DNA of 23,820 nucleotides from a virus, in the IMG/VR virus record IMGVR_UViG_3300008217_000096, positions 1-23,820 of that record; one strand, 5' to 3'. This document shows, piece after piece, positions 10,854 through 23,820 of this stretch. Position numbers and translations under genes: made by a program. Below the pieces are notes generated by a model that worked only from the letters and a program-made list of their open reading frames with translations, had not been told where the DNA came from and ran no database searches. Position 1 is the stretch's first letter; each line of letters opens with the position of its first letter.

Positions 10854-11300
10854 TTAAAAGTGCAGGATATCGTCCGGATCCTGTATAACGGCTATGACCT
10901 CATCGTCATTTAAAATGCGAACCTCGCCACCGTCTATTTTAAAACGAGCGCCCGCATATCGGCCAAAAATAATCCAATCCTTCTCCGCGCACCAAGGACC
11001 GCCGGGAAACTTCTCCTTATCTCCATAAGCTAGGGGTCCTACCTTCAGCACATAACCACAAACAGTGGCTACAGATTCCCGATCCACAACAGCATCGGGA
11101 ATTAAAACACCTCCCCCAGTCTTTCCTTTTCCTCTGTACGGTAAAATTAACAACCGCCATCCCGTTGGATTGGGAAGACGGTCAAAGGTCGCCGCGTCAA
11201 CTTTCTCCGGATCCAGAACTCTTTCTTCCGGCTTCACATAAGCAGTCTTCAGGGAGACAAGATTGTCGGTTTCTTCCAATTCAGACTTCTTCTGCATCAT
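10854..11300 (-). CDS. GroES-like co-chaperonin (Cpn10 fold)
   Basis: A 148-aa protein starting in an ATGA overlap with the 61-aa gene; a second ATG lies three bases on. From about residue 44 it follows the GroES layout: PTGWRLLILPY (first strand), a loop GKGKTGGGVLIPD matching the mobile loop with its hydrophobic VLI tripeptide, VCGYVLKVGPLAYGD, DWIIFGRYAGARFKIDGGEV and an end ILNDDEVIAVI. About 43 extra N-terminal residues and an insertion (KEKFPGGPWCAEK) distinguish it from host GroES (about 97 aa). By analogy with T4 gp31 it would cap host GroEL to help fold the capsid protein. No GroEL gene is in the window. Confidence 0.9.
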   Translation of the reverse strand: MMQKKSELEETDNLVSLKTAYVKPEERVLDPEKVDAATFDRLPNPTGWRLLILPYRGKGKTGGGVLIPDAVVDRESVATVCGYVLKVGPLAYGDKEKFPGGPWCAEKDWIIFGRYAGARFKIDGGEVRILNDDEVIAVIQDPDDILHF

Positions 11301-17947: not shown

Positions 17948-19729
17948 CTACCCTATCAGCCTTGCACTCTCATACAATGGCTTGTCTACAAAACCGCCGG
18001 ATACGTAACCTTCTCTATCATCCACTGATTTAATATAAAGGTCCTTAATCTCATCAATAATAGAACGAGGCGATTCCGTTCCTGAAACAACAATATCTTC
18101 GTCCCAACGCGGTCCACCAGTTTGCGAGTGCATGTATTCCCGTTCTGGAGTATCCGGTAAATAATGATCGGATAAACGAACTTCAAAACGTCTGTCTGGT
18201 GAAACAATGTATCGACTGGAGCGCCGTTTATCACGGCCCTTGGACGCATATCTGACTGTCCATCCCTCTTTCTTCAGGGCTCGCGGGACGGCTTCCATAT
18301 TTGCACGGGCTATCTCTCTCTGTAAGTAACCAATCCCCATGTGTTCTATTAAGTTCATCCGTGAGGCTATTTCACCGACAGCTTTCTTATTCCAGAGCCC
18401 TTCCTCATCGAGTCCTTGTAAGGCTTCGCCACGCTCACGTATTGCAGCCTCGTTAGAACGCCTAGCTTCTTCTTCCAATTTATGCCTTTTTTTTGCCTCA
18501 AACTTTCTAATAGCATGTCCGGGCTGCCGAGAAGCTAATGGGTCGGGTTTCTGATCGTAAACTCGGCGCTGCCGCGCAGACCCGAACTTTGCTGAACCTT
18601 CAAGAAATGCTATGCCATCCGAACGCAGTTCCTCGGGCCAATACTCGTTTCGCACCAAGTCATTAACTGCGTTTCTCGGCTTACTCTTCTGCGTTCTTGT
18701 TTCATATAAATTAAGTAGTTCACCTCGTTGCGCCCCCGTAAGGGGCAAATCGTCTACCGGCCAAGGGTTTCTGAGGAGGTCGTCTTCTGAGATACCCATT
18801 GCTTCTCCCAAAGAAGCAATACCCTGTTGCGGTTTCGCTACGGTGCCGACAATTTTTTCCCACACCTTGGGGGGAATGACAGTAGGTCCCGCATGCTCGG
18901 CAAACGTCTGTAAAAACTCTCCCAGACCTTCTTGCTGTCCAGGAGAAAGAAGGCTGTAGTATCGTTCTACGGAATCGAGAATACGAAGTGGTAAGTTGAC
19001 CTTACCAACACGTCTAAATATCTTACGGAGTATCTGACCCTTGCCCTGTCGTGTTTGAAGCCCCCGACCTCTCACCGGCTCTTCGGGCCGTTGTTCGGGC
19101 AATCGTTCGTCGTACCAAAGTCTGAGTATTTCTGAAATTAAAGGCACGCCCTCCAAAACGGCGGGTACATTCCGCGCCAGATTCCCCGCCGGGGTCTCAT
19201 ATGGAGACCATCCTGGCGGGGTGGTTAGTTCTTCAGGTCCGGGCTGGTCCGTGGGCCGTGGTTTACCTAAACTCGAAACAGGAACCTCTTGCCAGTCCAA
19301 AACAGCGCGGGAAGTATCCGACTTCGGGCGAAACACATTGCCCCGGTACACCTTGATTATATTTTCAAGCGGGATTTGTCCACGAACCCCGAACTCAGGT
19401 CCTGATGCACCCTGTTGAGGAACCGAATCGGAAGGCTTTCTTATACCAACTACATATGCAGGAGATTCCGGGGTAGCCTTAAAGTCACGCGGAGCAAAAT
19501 CGTGGGCGTACATTTCAGCCGTGCGAGGATTTGTGGAAAATATGGTTAAACCCTTCTGGCTTTCTCCTATGTTGTACTCACCCTTGCTGGCTAAAAAACC
19601 TTGTTCTAAAAGATTCTTGTACTCACCCCCGCTCATGCCGCGCCAGAGTATTCCTTCCTGCGGTTCTGGAGGAACGCGACCCAGCTTGAGTTTATACTCA
19701 AGGCTGTCGGGGTCTATGTAATCAGCCAT
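17948..19729 (-). CDS. Large phage protein with N-terminal ADP-ribosyltransferase-like domain
   Basis: A 593-aa protein. Residues 26-130 look like an ADP-ribosyltransferase fold of the R-S-E type: ILWRGMSGGEY (R30), a loop with GEYNIGESQKG, then LTIFSTNPRTAEMYA (S65), AYVVGIRKP and GQIPLENIIKVY (E122). I recall this arrangement from large polyvalent phage proteins. The middle (about 150-450) is helical and charged, with no recognised domain. The last 30 residues carry the tag GGFVDKPLYESARLIG, shared with the preceding 757-aa protein. The start lies 3 bases after that gene's stop, with the same TAGGCCATG junction as at the next gene. It might be packaged in the virion and modify host proteins on entry, as T4 Alt does; that is inference. 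Confidence 0.78.
   Translation of the reverse strand: MADYIDPDSLEYKLKLGRVPPEPQEGILWRGMSGGEYKNLLEQGFLASKGEYNIGESQKGLTIFSTNPRTAEMYAHDFAPRDFKATPESPAYVVGIRKPSDSVPQQGASGPEFGVRGQIPLENIIKVYRGNVFRPKSDTSRAVLDWQEVPVSSLGKPRPTDQPGPEELTTPPGWSPYETPAGNLARNVPAVLEGVPLISEILRLWYDERLPEQRPEEPVRGRGLQTRQGKGQILRKIFRRVGKVNLPLRILDSVERYYSLLSPGQQEGLGEFLQTFAEHAGPTVIPPKVWEKIVGTVAKPQQGIASLGEAMGISEDDLLRNPWPVDDLPLTGAQRGELLNLYETRTQKSKPRNAVNDLVRNEYWPEELRSDGIAFLEGSAKFGSARQRRVYDQKPDPLASRQPGHAIRKFEAKKRHKLEEEARRSNEAAIRERGEALQGLDEEGLWNKKAVGEIASRMNLIEHMGIGYLQREIARANMEAVPRALKKEGWTVRYASKGRDKRRSSRYIVSPDRRFEVRLSDHYLPDTPEREYMHSQTGGPRWDEDIVVSGTESPRSIIDEIKDLYIKSVDDREGYVSGGFVDKPLYESARLIG
17973..17999 (-). repeat. 27-bp repeat encoding shared C-terminal tag, copy B
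   Basis: These bases are identical to 19758-19784. They encode most of GGFVDKPLY at the end of the 593-aa gene. Homology continues less perfectly through the stop codon to the next ATG (TAGGCCATG in both). Confidence 0.93.
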
Positions 19730-19732
19730 GGC

Positions 19733-22006
19733 CTAGCCAATCATCCTTGCGTCTTCGTACAATGGCTTGTCTACAAAACCGCCGTGCGTAAATTTCTGGA
19801 TACCTTTTCCGAGTAAATGCCTCCTCATTTTTGGAGTGATTTTCAACGACCAGACCTTAGCGGTCGCCTTATTGATTGGGGAGTAGTATATCTCCGTCAT
19901 GCCTGCCTTCACACCGAACTTCTTCCCAAACTTGTTGGCATAATTTTTAATCATCACGTCATAAAACTTCCGCATACCTTTGGCTTCGTCTCCCGTTAAG
20001 CCATACCGCGCCACCTGCATATCTCCAGGTGTCCACGCTAAACTGTCTTTTCCTTCCTCTGCCGCCAGCCGCAGGGCACGTCTAAAAGCCAGTTCGTGCC
20101 ACGTTTTCTTGAATGGCATATCGGGGACGGCACCCAACAGACTTGAGATTTGGCTATCGATTTCTCGAAGCGCGGCCCTTGTCTCGTCGTCAAATTTTCC
20201 TCGTTTGACTACTAACCTTGAATATTCGTCTTGTTCTACGGGGGTTAGCCCCACTAAACTTTCACCCACCCGTTTGTCTGCTAGTTCTTTAAGACGAGGC
20301 AGCCAATCAGACATCCTTGCGTCTTCAGCCGCAGTATCCCGCTCCGCTAATATCTCGGCTCTTTGTTCTTTGAGCAGAGCAAGCCGCTCCGGGTCTTTAT
20401 ATCCAAAATTTTTAGGAACCAGTTCTTTCACCCCTTCTTTCGCGGCATCCCATGCTTTGCCAAACTCTCCTCCGATCAGGTGGGCAACTTCGTTCCTATC
20501 AATATCCTCATCATCATCTATAAAATCATCCAGAGTCATAATATTATTGGGAGTCAGCCCCTCGTCGACGTCGTATAGGAGCTGGGCCTCGTCGAAATAT
20601 GCGTCGAGCATAAGCTTACCATGTAAAGGATCCGGATCAAAATTCTTGAGGAACCGTGCAAGAGTTACCCTCTTAATTTCGGCTTTCCGCATGTCCCTGG
20701 CTCGCTGATGCGCGTCACCCTGAATTTCTTCAACAAACTTTACATCATTACCTGCAACCGTTTTTCTGTCATTTACACGCAGGTGAGCGAAATAGTTTTT
20801 GTCGGGAAAGTGACCGCCAACAAAATCCTCTCCAGCCGTCCTGGGGGGTAGCTGCATTAAAATTTCCTGGTAATTCTGGAGTCCTCGACCACGGCCCAAT
20901 GTCTCCTCGCTAAATATGGTCTTATCTTCGGCACGTATCTTCCCATCCCTCACGGCATGTCTTTGAGCCATGATCTTGGCCTCTTCCAGAGTACGACCAA
21001 AGTAGCGACCTTCTGACCAGGGTAGTGGTGCATCAGAATCGGGGCCATAAACGCTATATCTGTTGGTGTTGGAGCCGCTGCTACGCAGCCTAGCCGATGA
21101 TGGGTGTTTATAAATACGGTATCCAAATTCTGGATCAATAAGAGCCGCAACTGGACCGCCGATAATTATGGGGCGCGTGACGAGGGATCCCCCATAAACG
21201 GACGCCTCGCTTACCGTTTTCGCTTCCAGAAGCCTTGCTTCCAGAGCGGGTCCAGATTCCTGGGGGTCCAGATTTGGCAGATTTTTCCAAGTCAGAGTCT
21301 TACCTTCCCCCCCACGGATAATATCCTTGATGCTAACCGGATTGGCGGCCAGGATGTCCTGAACCTCCTGCTTGGAAACTTTTCCTCCCGTTTCGATCTT
21401 GTTCCTCAAGTATGGACCCAAGCCTCTATACTCTAGTTCCGCCTCTTTCACGCCCTCGGTCTTTCTAAGCGTAGTTAATACCTGGGAGGGGTCAGCCGCG
21501 TAGCGCCCCCATGACACCTTATCGACAGCGTCGGCAAGTGCTGATCCGTATACAGGGGGAAGCTGGTACTTCCCGGATTGTGGATCCCATGGCATCAGCG
21601 TCGTAATGCCGCCTTCGGGCACGTCTTCTTTAGCAAGACCAAAGAGGTCCTGGAAATATCCGATACCAGCGCGGGCAAGAGGATGCGGTTCGCCCAGTTG
21701 CCCCTGCTGTTTCAGCCAATCCAGAGTTGGTCCCACGATCTGCCAGTCTTTTGGCAGCAGATCGTAGCCCTGCTGTGCCAGATTAACAAAATTGAGGAAC
21801 GATCTTATGTTGGGAGGTACTGGGAGCCCCACAATGCCACCAGGACGACGTACTACCAGACTTCTGCCCGGGGCCTTCGGACCCTTCTTCTGAATCGCTC
21901 CCCCTGGAACTCCTACAGGTGGGGCCGGTTCGTCCAACTGAGGTATTTCAGGTAGATCTGCCCTCTGCTTGGCAAAGTCTTTGCTAGGGTCGAACTCGTC
22001 AGCCAT
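19733..22006 (-). CDS. Large polyvalent-type phage protein (possible internal virion protein)
   Basis: A 757-aa protein overlapping the terL end by 8 bases, with GGAG 5 bases before the ATG. The N-terminal 60 residues are Pro-rich and basic (PAPPVGVPGGAIQKKGPKAP). Residues about 397-433 hold HFPDKNYFAHLRVNDR and VKFVEEIQGDAHQRARD; about 630-700 hold TWHELAFRRALRLAAEEGKD, LAWTPGDMQVARYG and FYDVMIKNYANKFGKKFG. I recall these two blocks as parts of one conserved domain in very large polyvalent phage proteins, here separated by about 200 acidic residues (DDFIDDDEDIDRNE, coiled coil near KEQRAEILAERD). The end is the tag GGFVDKPLYEDARMIG. Function is unknown; virion or injected-protein roles are typical guesses. 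Confidence 0.78.
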   Translation of the reverse strand: MADEFDPSKDFAKQRADLPEIPQLDEPAPPVGVPGGAIQKKGPKAPGRSLVVRRPGGIVGLPVPPNIRSFLNFVNLAQQGYDLLPKDWQIVGPTLDWLKQQGQLGEPHPLARAGIGYFQDLFGLAKEDVPEGGITTLMPWDPQSGKYQLPPVYGSALADAVDKVSWGRYAADPSQVLTTLRKTEGVKEAELEYRGLGPYLRNKIETGGKVSKQEVQDILAANPVSIKDIIRGGEGKTLTWKNLPNLDPQESGPALEARLLEAKTVSEASVYGGSLVTRPIIIGGPVAALIDPEFGYRIYKHPSSARLRSSGSNTNRYSVYGPDSDAPLPWSEGRYFGRTLEEAKIMAQRHAVRDGKIRAEDKTIFSEETLGRGRGLQNYQEILMQLPPRTAGEDFVGGHFPDKNYFAHLRVNDRKTVAGNDVKFVEEIQGDAHQRARDMRKAEIKRVTLARFLKNFDPDPLHGKLMLDAYFDEAQLLYDVDEGLTPNNIMTLDDFIDDDEDIDRNEVAHLIGGEFGKAWDAAKEGVKELVPKNFGYKDPERLALLKEQRAEILAERDTAAEDARMSDWLPRLKELADKRVGESLVGLTPVEQDEYSRLVVKRGKFDDETRAALREIDSQISSLLGAVPDMPFKKTWHELAFRRALRLAAEEGKDSLAWTPGDMQVARYGLTGDEAKGMRKFYDVMIKNYANKFGKKFGVKAGMTEIYYSPINKATAKVWSLKITPKMRRHLLGKGIQKFTHGGFVDKPLYEDARMIG
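19758..19784 (-). repeat. 27-bp repeat encoding shared C-terminal tag, copy A
   Basis: These bases are identical to 17973-17999 and encode most of GGFVDKPLY at the end of the 757-aa gene. Confidence 0.93.
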
Positions 22007-23462
22007 AATAACTCCGCAGGTGGGTAGACGGCTCGCTGTCCACCCAATCGTCGCTCGGTAATTGTACGAAGTTACCCTGACGGTACCGCATCAGGGCCTG
22101 CGTGGTGCTGTCTACAAGATCATCATACTCGCCATGCGGAAATGCCGCACATTCGTCGATAACCTCGTCAGCCCATCGTTCGTCCGGTGCCCATATCATC
22201 CCGCTCTCAAATAGCGGCGAAACGGAGTGCACCCGCGTTAACTTATCGTTTCCCTTACTTGGTGTAAAGTTTACAACAGGTATTCCAACCTGCCGTAATT
22301 CCTGCGTCAGCGGCAGCCCCGACGCCTTGGCCTCCACGATTACCGTCTCAGGCTCCCAGAACTTGTACTGCTCTAACGCCTCCACCTTCAATTCCGGAAA
22401 ATCCCACCGCCCCTTCTTCGCGCCCAACAAAATCAGATTAGCCGGTCCATCCTGCTTTGGATAAAATACCCCCCACGTCGTAATGGCCGAGTAATCCGCA
22501 GTCTCCCGCTTGCTGAAAGCCGTATCGTAACTCTGTATTACATACGCAAGCTGGGGAACCTCCTCCTCTTTCCACCTGTTCCACCACTCCTTCTTGATAA
22601 TCGCACCCTCTTCCGAAGTCGGATTCTGCTGCCACTGGGCATTCCACTTGGAAACGGACAACGAAGCACGGACCCCCTCCAACTCCTCCTTGCTCCAGAA
22701 CTCAGGCCAACAGGAATTCCCGCTCGGCATCAAGGCAGGAAACTCGATCACCTCCCACCGGTCCGCATGCTCATCATAACTCTGCGCCTTCAAAACCTTT
22801 GCAGTCAAATCCTTCAACGACCACCGCGTCATAACAATAACAATGGCACCCCCAGGCTGGAGCCTCTGCCGGGGACCCGACGTATACCACTCATACGCAT
22901 GCTCCATCGCCGTCTCGGAAAGCGCGTCCTGCTCGGAATGCGGATCGTCAATAATCAACAAATCAGCACCGCGCCCGGTTATCGCACCACCGACACCCGC
23001 TGCAAAATACTCCCCACCTTGGTTCGTGGACCACCGCCCGGCAGCCTTGCTGTCCGCCTGCAAGGACACATTGTCGAATATCGACGTGTACTCGCCCGTA
23101 TCCAAAAGGTTGCGAACCTTCCTTCCAAAATTTACGGCTAACTCTGCGGTGTGCGTGGTCTGGATGATCTTGGTCTTCGGAGCACGGCCAATGACCCATG
23201 AGGGAAAGAGATAGCTTGCAAACTCAGATTTCGTATGGCGGGGAGGCATGTTGATGATGAGCCTCTTGTTCTTGCCGTTTGCAATATCCTCAAATTTCTT
23301 TGCAATCATTCTGTGGTGGGCCCCTGCAATAAATTCAGGCCACACTTTGCGGACGTACTTTAAGAAGTCTTCCCTACACCCCTCTACTTCTGACATCTGC
23401 GCCAAGCGCAATTCCAGCTTCAGTCTCCGCTCCTCGATCTCTGGTGTCTCTGTTCTTAGCAT
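21999..23462 (-). CDS. terL: Terminase large subunit
   Basis: A 487-aa protein from ATG 23462 (MLRTETPEIEER), with AGGGA upstream. The frame is open to ATG 23549, but the extra 29 residues cross the parS-like palindrome, look non-conserved and lack a ribosome site. The ATPase domain has the Walker A-like MPPRHTKS (72-79), Walker B LLIIDD (168-173) and a coupling motif VIVMTRWS (208-215). The RNase H-like nuclease has acidic residues at SYDTAF (D313), VIVEAKASG (E377) and DDLVDSTTQ (D447/D448, D451). Length is normal. It cuts concatemeric genomes and drives DNA through the portal. The small subunit is not in the window; it may lie to the right or be unrecognised. Confidence 0.95.
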   Translation of the reverse strand: MLRTETPEIEERRLKLELRLAQMSEVEGCREDFLKYVRKVWPEFIAGAHHRMIAKKFEDIANGKNKRLIINMPPRHTKSEFASYLFPSWVIGRAPKTKIIQTTHTAELAVNFGRKVRNLLDTGEYTSIFDNVSLQADSKAAGRWSTNQGGEYFAAGVGGAITGRGADLLIIDDPHSEQDALSETAMEHAYEWYTSGPRQRLQPGGAIVIVMTRWSLKDLTAKVLKAQSYDEHADRWEVIEFPALMPSGNSCWPEFWSKEELEGVRASLSVSKWNAQWQQNPTSEEGAIIKKEWWNRWKEEEVPQLAYVIQSYDTAFSKRETADYSAITTWGVFYPKQDGPANLILLGAKKGRWDFPELKVEALEQYKFWEPETVIVEAKASGLPLTQELRQVGIPVVNFTPSKGNDKLTRVHSVSPLFESGMIWAPDERWADEVIDECAAFPHGEYDDLVDSTTQALMRYRQGNFVQLPSDDWVDSEPSTHLRSYYG

Positions 23463-23481
23463 GAGGGTCCCTGAGTGATGA

Positions 23482-23497
23482 TGTTTCACGTGAAACA
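23482..23497. promoter_or_regulatory. Perfect parS-like ParB binding site
   Basis: The 16 bases TGTTTCACGTGAAACA are a perfect palindrome and match the consensus of bacterial chromosomal parS sites, to which ParB binds as a CTP-dependent clamp. It lies 20 bp upstream of the preferred terL start. I saw no second copy in the window. Under equal base use, a given 16-mer is expected about 5e-6 times in 23.8 kb. Confidence 0.85.
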
Positions 23498-23549
23498 CTA
23501 ATATGGGGGTGTTTGGAAGGCAATTCCCGTACCAGTTAATCCATATCAT

Positions 23550-23652: not shown

Positions 23653-23698
23653 AGATTCAGCCCTGGGGCCCCCTGGCGCTTGGAGCGCGGAGCGCGGA

Positions 23699-23820
23699 GC
23701 CAGGACAGCGGAGCCAGGGCAGCGGAGCCAGGGCAGCGGAGCCAGGACCAGGGCAGCGGAGCCAGGACCAGGGCAGCGGAGCCAGGACCAGGGCAGCGGA
23801 GCCAGGACCAGGGCAGCGGA
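23699..23820. repeat. 14/20-bp tandem array running off the right edge
   Basis: Three 14-bp units (23699-23712, 23713-23726, 23727-23740) of the form GCCAGG(G/A)CAGCGGA are followed by four identical 20-bp units GCCAGGACCAGGGCAGCGGA up to 23820. A shorter GCGCGGA element is repeated just before. Unit lengths are not multiples of three and no gene covers it. The array is cut by the window, so its true length is unknown. Low-complexity arrays at a contig end can also be assembly products. Confidence 0.9.

Follow-up and report, generated by a model that had tools for sequence, protein, structure and literature searches.

A host-type parS palindrome beside the terminase gene of apparently lytic phages probably serves to recruit host ParB

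A 16-bp palindrome in the leader of a phage terminase gene has the form of a bacterial chromosomal parS site, and comparisons of sequence across relatives make it probable that the palindrome is under selection in these phages to recruit the ParB of the host, whatever use the bound protein is put to. These marine phages probably borrow a segregation protein from the host, since their DNA bears an exact host-type tag and a gene for the protein that binds it could not be detected. The features listed below belong to the DNA analyzed here, a viral fragment of 23.8 kb referred to as the window.

23482..23497, strandless: parS-type palindrome TGTTTCACGTGAAACA, perfect (both strands read alike), an exact 16-bp match
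23463..23549, minus strand: terL leader, which contains parS as well as the region of ribosome binding, from the sequence and the leaders of relatives
21999..23462, minus strand: terL, terminase large subunit, 487 aa (phrog_38, E=1.2e-111; Terminase_6C above cut-off)
23694..23820, strandless: GC-rich tandem repeats with 14- and 20-bp units, which lie upstream of terL and parS where the contig ends
12644..15073, minus strand: portal protein of the SU10 type, which identifies the phage family
7875..8783, minus strand: major capsid protein, a context gene

The palindrome at 23482-23497 equals the bacterial parS consensus over its whole length, which confirms the report of the first-pass annotation that the terL leader holds an exact copy of that consensus. 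The annotation had put the odds of a chance occurrence at about 5 in a million, and recomputation returned 5.2e-6 with the base use of the window and 5.5e-6 with equal base use. A search for further copies, which had been proposed as a check, covered the whole 23.8-kb window and found no second parS-like site at three or fewer mismatches, while dinucleotide shuffles of the window gave a mean of 0.05 matches at this tolerance. The likely start codon of terL is the ATG at 23462, which is common to the relatives in an alignment of 17 of them, and on account of this shared start the site spans positions -35 to -20, about 20 bp from the ATG. The terL frame stays open to an ATG at 23549, and a start at that position would place the palindrome inside the open reading frame as VFHVKH. 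A TTGCTATAAT-like promoter element is found about 20 bp upstream of parS in many relatives; the window has at most a weak version of it.

In nearly every relative, GC-rich tandem repeats are found at a shared location ahead of parS and terL, at about -220 to -500 from terL in L122, L127, L129, L130, L132, L134 and L139-L145, with repeat units that are unrelated to one another. The repeats probably cause the many contig ends that fall upstream of terL. Their tie to parS is one of position only, as the units are unrelated.

Is the palindrome kept in other phages with this terminase? Eighty terL loci (637 kb) were retrieved by protein and without use of the motif, and a close set was defined as those with a terL at least 87% identical after removal of near-duplicates (n = 26). 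The palindrome was present within one mismatch of a parS form in 25 of these 26 close relatives and was exact in 20 of them; the relatives are statistically non-independent, and their flanks and site positions are nonetheless widely different. The site usually lies 30-40 bp before terL, four close genomes have it further upstream (-63 to -286), and L129 is the sole exception in the close set. Information content is 1.92 bits per base within the site; the corresponding values are 0.33 for the flanks of 40 bp and 0.93 for the third codon positions of terL. The first-pass annotation had named absence or free mutation of the palindrome among terL relatives as the observation that would tell against parS; what we found is a site that is kept while its flanks drift. 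Most changes within the site affect its outermost bases or the inner positions that alternate between T and C or A and G, in a set that takes in loci found by the motif and in which the share of exact sites is therefore biased. Bacterial parS consensuses also vary at that T/C position (PMC7022226). The site of one relative, L130, has a symmetric double change, TGTTCCACGTGGAACG.

The same result emerged when the motif was not specified in advance. A count of all perfect 16-mer palindromes in the 80 terL-selected loci placed TGTTTCACGTGAAACA first (38 loci) and TGTTCCACGTGGAACA second (10 loci), the next best being found in 2, and the two leading palindromes are the two bacterial parS forms. Permuted palindromes (n = 200) gave no exact matches, versus 38 loci for parS. 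With one mismatch and all Y/R forms allowed, the site was present in 61 of the 80 loci, compared with a mean of 0.005 loci for the 200 permuted palindromes at the same tolerance and in one form. Across IMG/VR, two control palindromes of the same composition occurred in 5 and 20 stretches and parS in at least 120.

A fixed position of the site relative to terL throughout the family was rejected, as the site moves between clades. In sister clades parS lies either inside the gene after terL, +0.3 to +3.4 kb away, or upstream of terL. The in-gene words (L163:2485, L070:1849, L186:10023 and their relatives) are in the coding gene after terL, and the peptide shifts among VPRGT, VSRET and VSRGT with the DNA word held constant. 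Most of the contigs compared are fragments, and on the longest ones in which both could be placed (G076, G106, G107, G030 and HTVC027P) the site is no further than about 7.5 kb from terL; a counter-example is the 41-kb contig G069, where a second site lies a long way from the end that bears terL. No site at two or fewer mismatches was found in L129 or in the complete relatives HTVC023P, 023Pt_psg01, DSL-LC04 and CRP-901, so that phages of the wider family can evidently do without it.

The motif scan also turned up several contigs with up to five exact sites beside a terL that is only about 27% identical to the window type. Relatives of the L044 terL (L300-L379) were retrieved by protein to represent this second phage group, and 74 loci were usable for a count, which yielded 103 exact parS sites in 35 of the 74 loci, with up to five in each. 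All 103 sites are upstream of terL and none is downstream, the arrays lying 0.1-4 kb upstream, and the whole contigs of the group that were checked (up to 61 kb) had no more exact sites away from the region upstream of terL. The site is clade-specific within the second group, since many more distant members are without it. The first-pass claim that the phage DNA bears a genuine parS linked to the terminase region is therefore supported by conservation, by the top rank among palindromes, by the permuted controls and by the second group.

Terminases of other families (phrog_2) were also found next to exact parS sites, 18 bp upstream in one case (L078:1048-1063) and about 230 bp upstream in the other (L025:11019-11034). 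These two loci hint that parS beside terL is more widespread.

A further question is which protein would read the site. ParB_N and HTH_ParB domains were absent from the family records, including five complete related phages, the window's own clade being represented by fragments of at most 30 kb; no ParA-type ATPase (AAA_31) was found in 19 family records, and 18 records from the second group gave no match to ParB_N, in searches that were profile-based and that a divergent ParB-like protein could escape. Only 2 of 50 motif-selected viral contigs gave a ParB_N match at all. The family records searched showed neither the ParB gene nor the ParA-type ATPase on the same replicon that would mark a self-encoded ParABS system, and a phage-encoded ParB, none having been found in them, was rejected. 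The first-pass annotation had allowed for ParB of the host or of the phage and had suggested looking for parA and parB genes. As none turned up in the family records, the host-ParB half of that reading was kept, and it seems to be favored as well by a SAR11 site beside parAB; the half that invoked the phage's own ParB is left unsupported. The SAR11 site, identical to that of the window, is in rsmG beside parA and parB in the single cell AG-404-L13. The MAG labels of contigs with a related terL disagree widely on host. The AG-404-L13 assembly also holds a contig with a related terL (L209), which has no parS site.

The chromosomal parS sites of B. subtilis, Caulobacter and Hyphomonas (PMC7022226) have the same 16 bp, the Hyphomonas form being TGTTTCACGTGAAACA, and like the phage sites they tolerate variation at the inner T/C position and occur singly or in clusters. 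The phage site differs from them in that it is on phage DNA beside terL rather than near oriC, with no parA or parB found on the replicon. The phage-plasmids P1 and N15 and the parABS mycobacteriophages likewise have a partition site on phage DNA. These phages, however, have their own ParA and ParB (or equivalent) and their own sites, and they persist as plasmids, whereas searches of the window's family turned up neither par genes nor a tyrosine integrase, and its site is of the host type.

The window belongs with the HTVC023P-type phages, with which it shares homologous terL, portal, capsid and GroES genes in a similar order. Its terL is 58-67% and its portal 52-54% identical to those of 023Pt_psg01, HTVC027P, HTVC023P and DSL-LC04, which are phages of 58-62 kb. 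The HTVC023P-type pelagiphages (HTVC027P and HTVC023P) and 023Pt_psg01 resemble the window in GroES and capsid order and have genomes of about 60 kb. HTVC027P also has a parS-type site, as does the window clade, but with one mismatch and about 4 kb before terL; HTVC023P and 023Pt_psg01 differ from the window in being without one at two or fewer mismatches. PMC9599517 mentions neither parS nor ParB, and PMC12753301 does not mention ParB. No near-identical DNA to the window was found in the INPHARED phage collection; contig L122 has an identical terL and the same parS site.

The window also encodes a GroES-like co-chaperonin (Cpn10; 10854-11300, minus strand) and a GTA-type holin. Two adjoining large proteins of no assigned function (19733-22006 and 17948-19729, minus strand) have a common C-terminal motif, GGFVDKPLYExARxIG, and the GG..PLY peptide motif was absent beside the in-gene parS sites of the relatives checked.

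Phages of this family are apparently lytic. An obligately lytic life that depends on the RNA polymerase of the host has been described for HTVC027P (PMC12753301), and a search confined to tyrosine integrases found none in 21 family records. Because the phages look lytic, partitioning of an extrachromosomal prophage, which had been among the uses first suggested for the site, is not our first choice.

By what mechanism might host ParB assist a lytic phage? We propose that the palindrome acts as a working chromosomal-type parS under selection in phages that have no ParB themselves. Once a cell is infected, its ParB, which clamps DNA in a CTP-dependent manner, would load at the phage parS and spread over the terminase region, and the host machinery that recognizes ParB (ParA and SMC) would then handle the ParB-coated phage DNA, which may position, separate or compact the replicating phage genomes ahead of packaging. 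Loading of ParB-CTP at parS, clamp closure, spreading, and contact with ParA and SMC have been described (PMC12704722). Phage lambda with an engineered parS replicates in and lyses cells that produce CFP-ParB (PMC13190303), so a lytic cycle can accommodate the loading of ParB. By inference, binding of ParB to the site in the infected cell is highly probable. If binding occurs, a positioning or SMC-related use, as opposed to some other use of the bound protein, has slightly less than an even prospect of being correct. Because the neighborhood of terL, and not one promoter position, is conserved, we favor an effect on the region as a whole, whether by positioning, SMC loading or packaging, over simple repression.

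An alternative role for bound ParB is that of a transcription timer, in which host ParB in the terL leader represses the terminase or late operon early and the operon is released as phage copies multiply; the amount of ParB per genome would fall with copy number, and packaging would thereby be coupled to replication. The location of the window-clade site, 30-40 bp before terL and just downstream of the promoter-like element in many members, is in keeping with such a timer, as are the repression by Pseudomonas aeruginosa ParB of promoters adjoining parS3 and parS4 (PMC5521831) and the need of HTVC027P for host RNA polymerase (PMC12753301). P. aeruginosa ParB at parS3/parS4 and KorB of RK2 are likewise clamp-type proteins at palindromes near promoters, but these are local transcription repressors, whereas promoter control in the phages is putative. 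The sister-clade sites reach as far as 3.4 kb downstream of terL, within genes, and the second-group arrays are 0.1-4 kb upstream, so conservation does not attach to one promoter position. Although ParB spreading could still reach the promoter from displaced sites, we consider the timer unlikely. ParB loaded beside the terminase genes might also mark or shape the end of the DNA from which packaging begins, in the pac or cos region, which would account for sites that stay in the terL neighborhood though their exact place shifts. To our knowledge, however, no terminase uses ParB, and with the second site of G069 so far from terL a packaging mark appears quite unlikely.

Replicating phage DNA might instead be a decoy that titrates host ParB and upsets segregation of the host chromosome. 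The many phage genome copies in a cell would multiply a single site, and genomes of the second group have up to five, yet a single site per genome would titrate poorly and a decoy role leaves its persistence beside terL unexplained, which makes this role highly improbable. The palindrome might also be read by some regulator of the terL operon, from phage or host, that has no relation to ParB, or it might work as a 6-bp stem in the leader RNA. Palindromic operators are common, and the stem could form near the ribosome-binding site (-3.9 kcal/mol alone). An RNA hairpin should undergo compensatory drift, but almost every one of the 16 letters is invariant, those of the loop included; the hairpin was rejected as the conserved element because it can form and yet does not explain this near-total fixation. 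Identity with bacterial parS, occurrence in two distantly related phage groups and use within genes would all be coincidence if ParB were not the reader, and we regard another reader or an RNA stem as very unlikely. Chance occurrence or host DNA contamination might be entertained for a single short word within the window, but conservation across relatives, the palindrome rank, the permuted controls and the second group led us to reject both; the contig moreover encodes phage structural genes and L122, with its identical terL, has the same site. The probability that either accounts for the palindrome is negligible.

No earlier report of a host-type parS in phages without ParB was found in a search of the open-access literature. 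The broadest form of the proposal, in which at least two distantly related, ParB-less and apparently lytic lineages use host ParB, with SMC, in the lytic cycle and so link segregation of the viral genome to packaging, stands in our judgment at about even. If it is true, a borrowed cis site would by itself be enough for lytic phages to make use of the machinery that segregates bacterial chromosomes, genome segregation would be tied to DNA packaging, and the phages would be predicted to depend on host ParB or SMC. The parS motif would then provide a simple marker for phages that may use host ParB.
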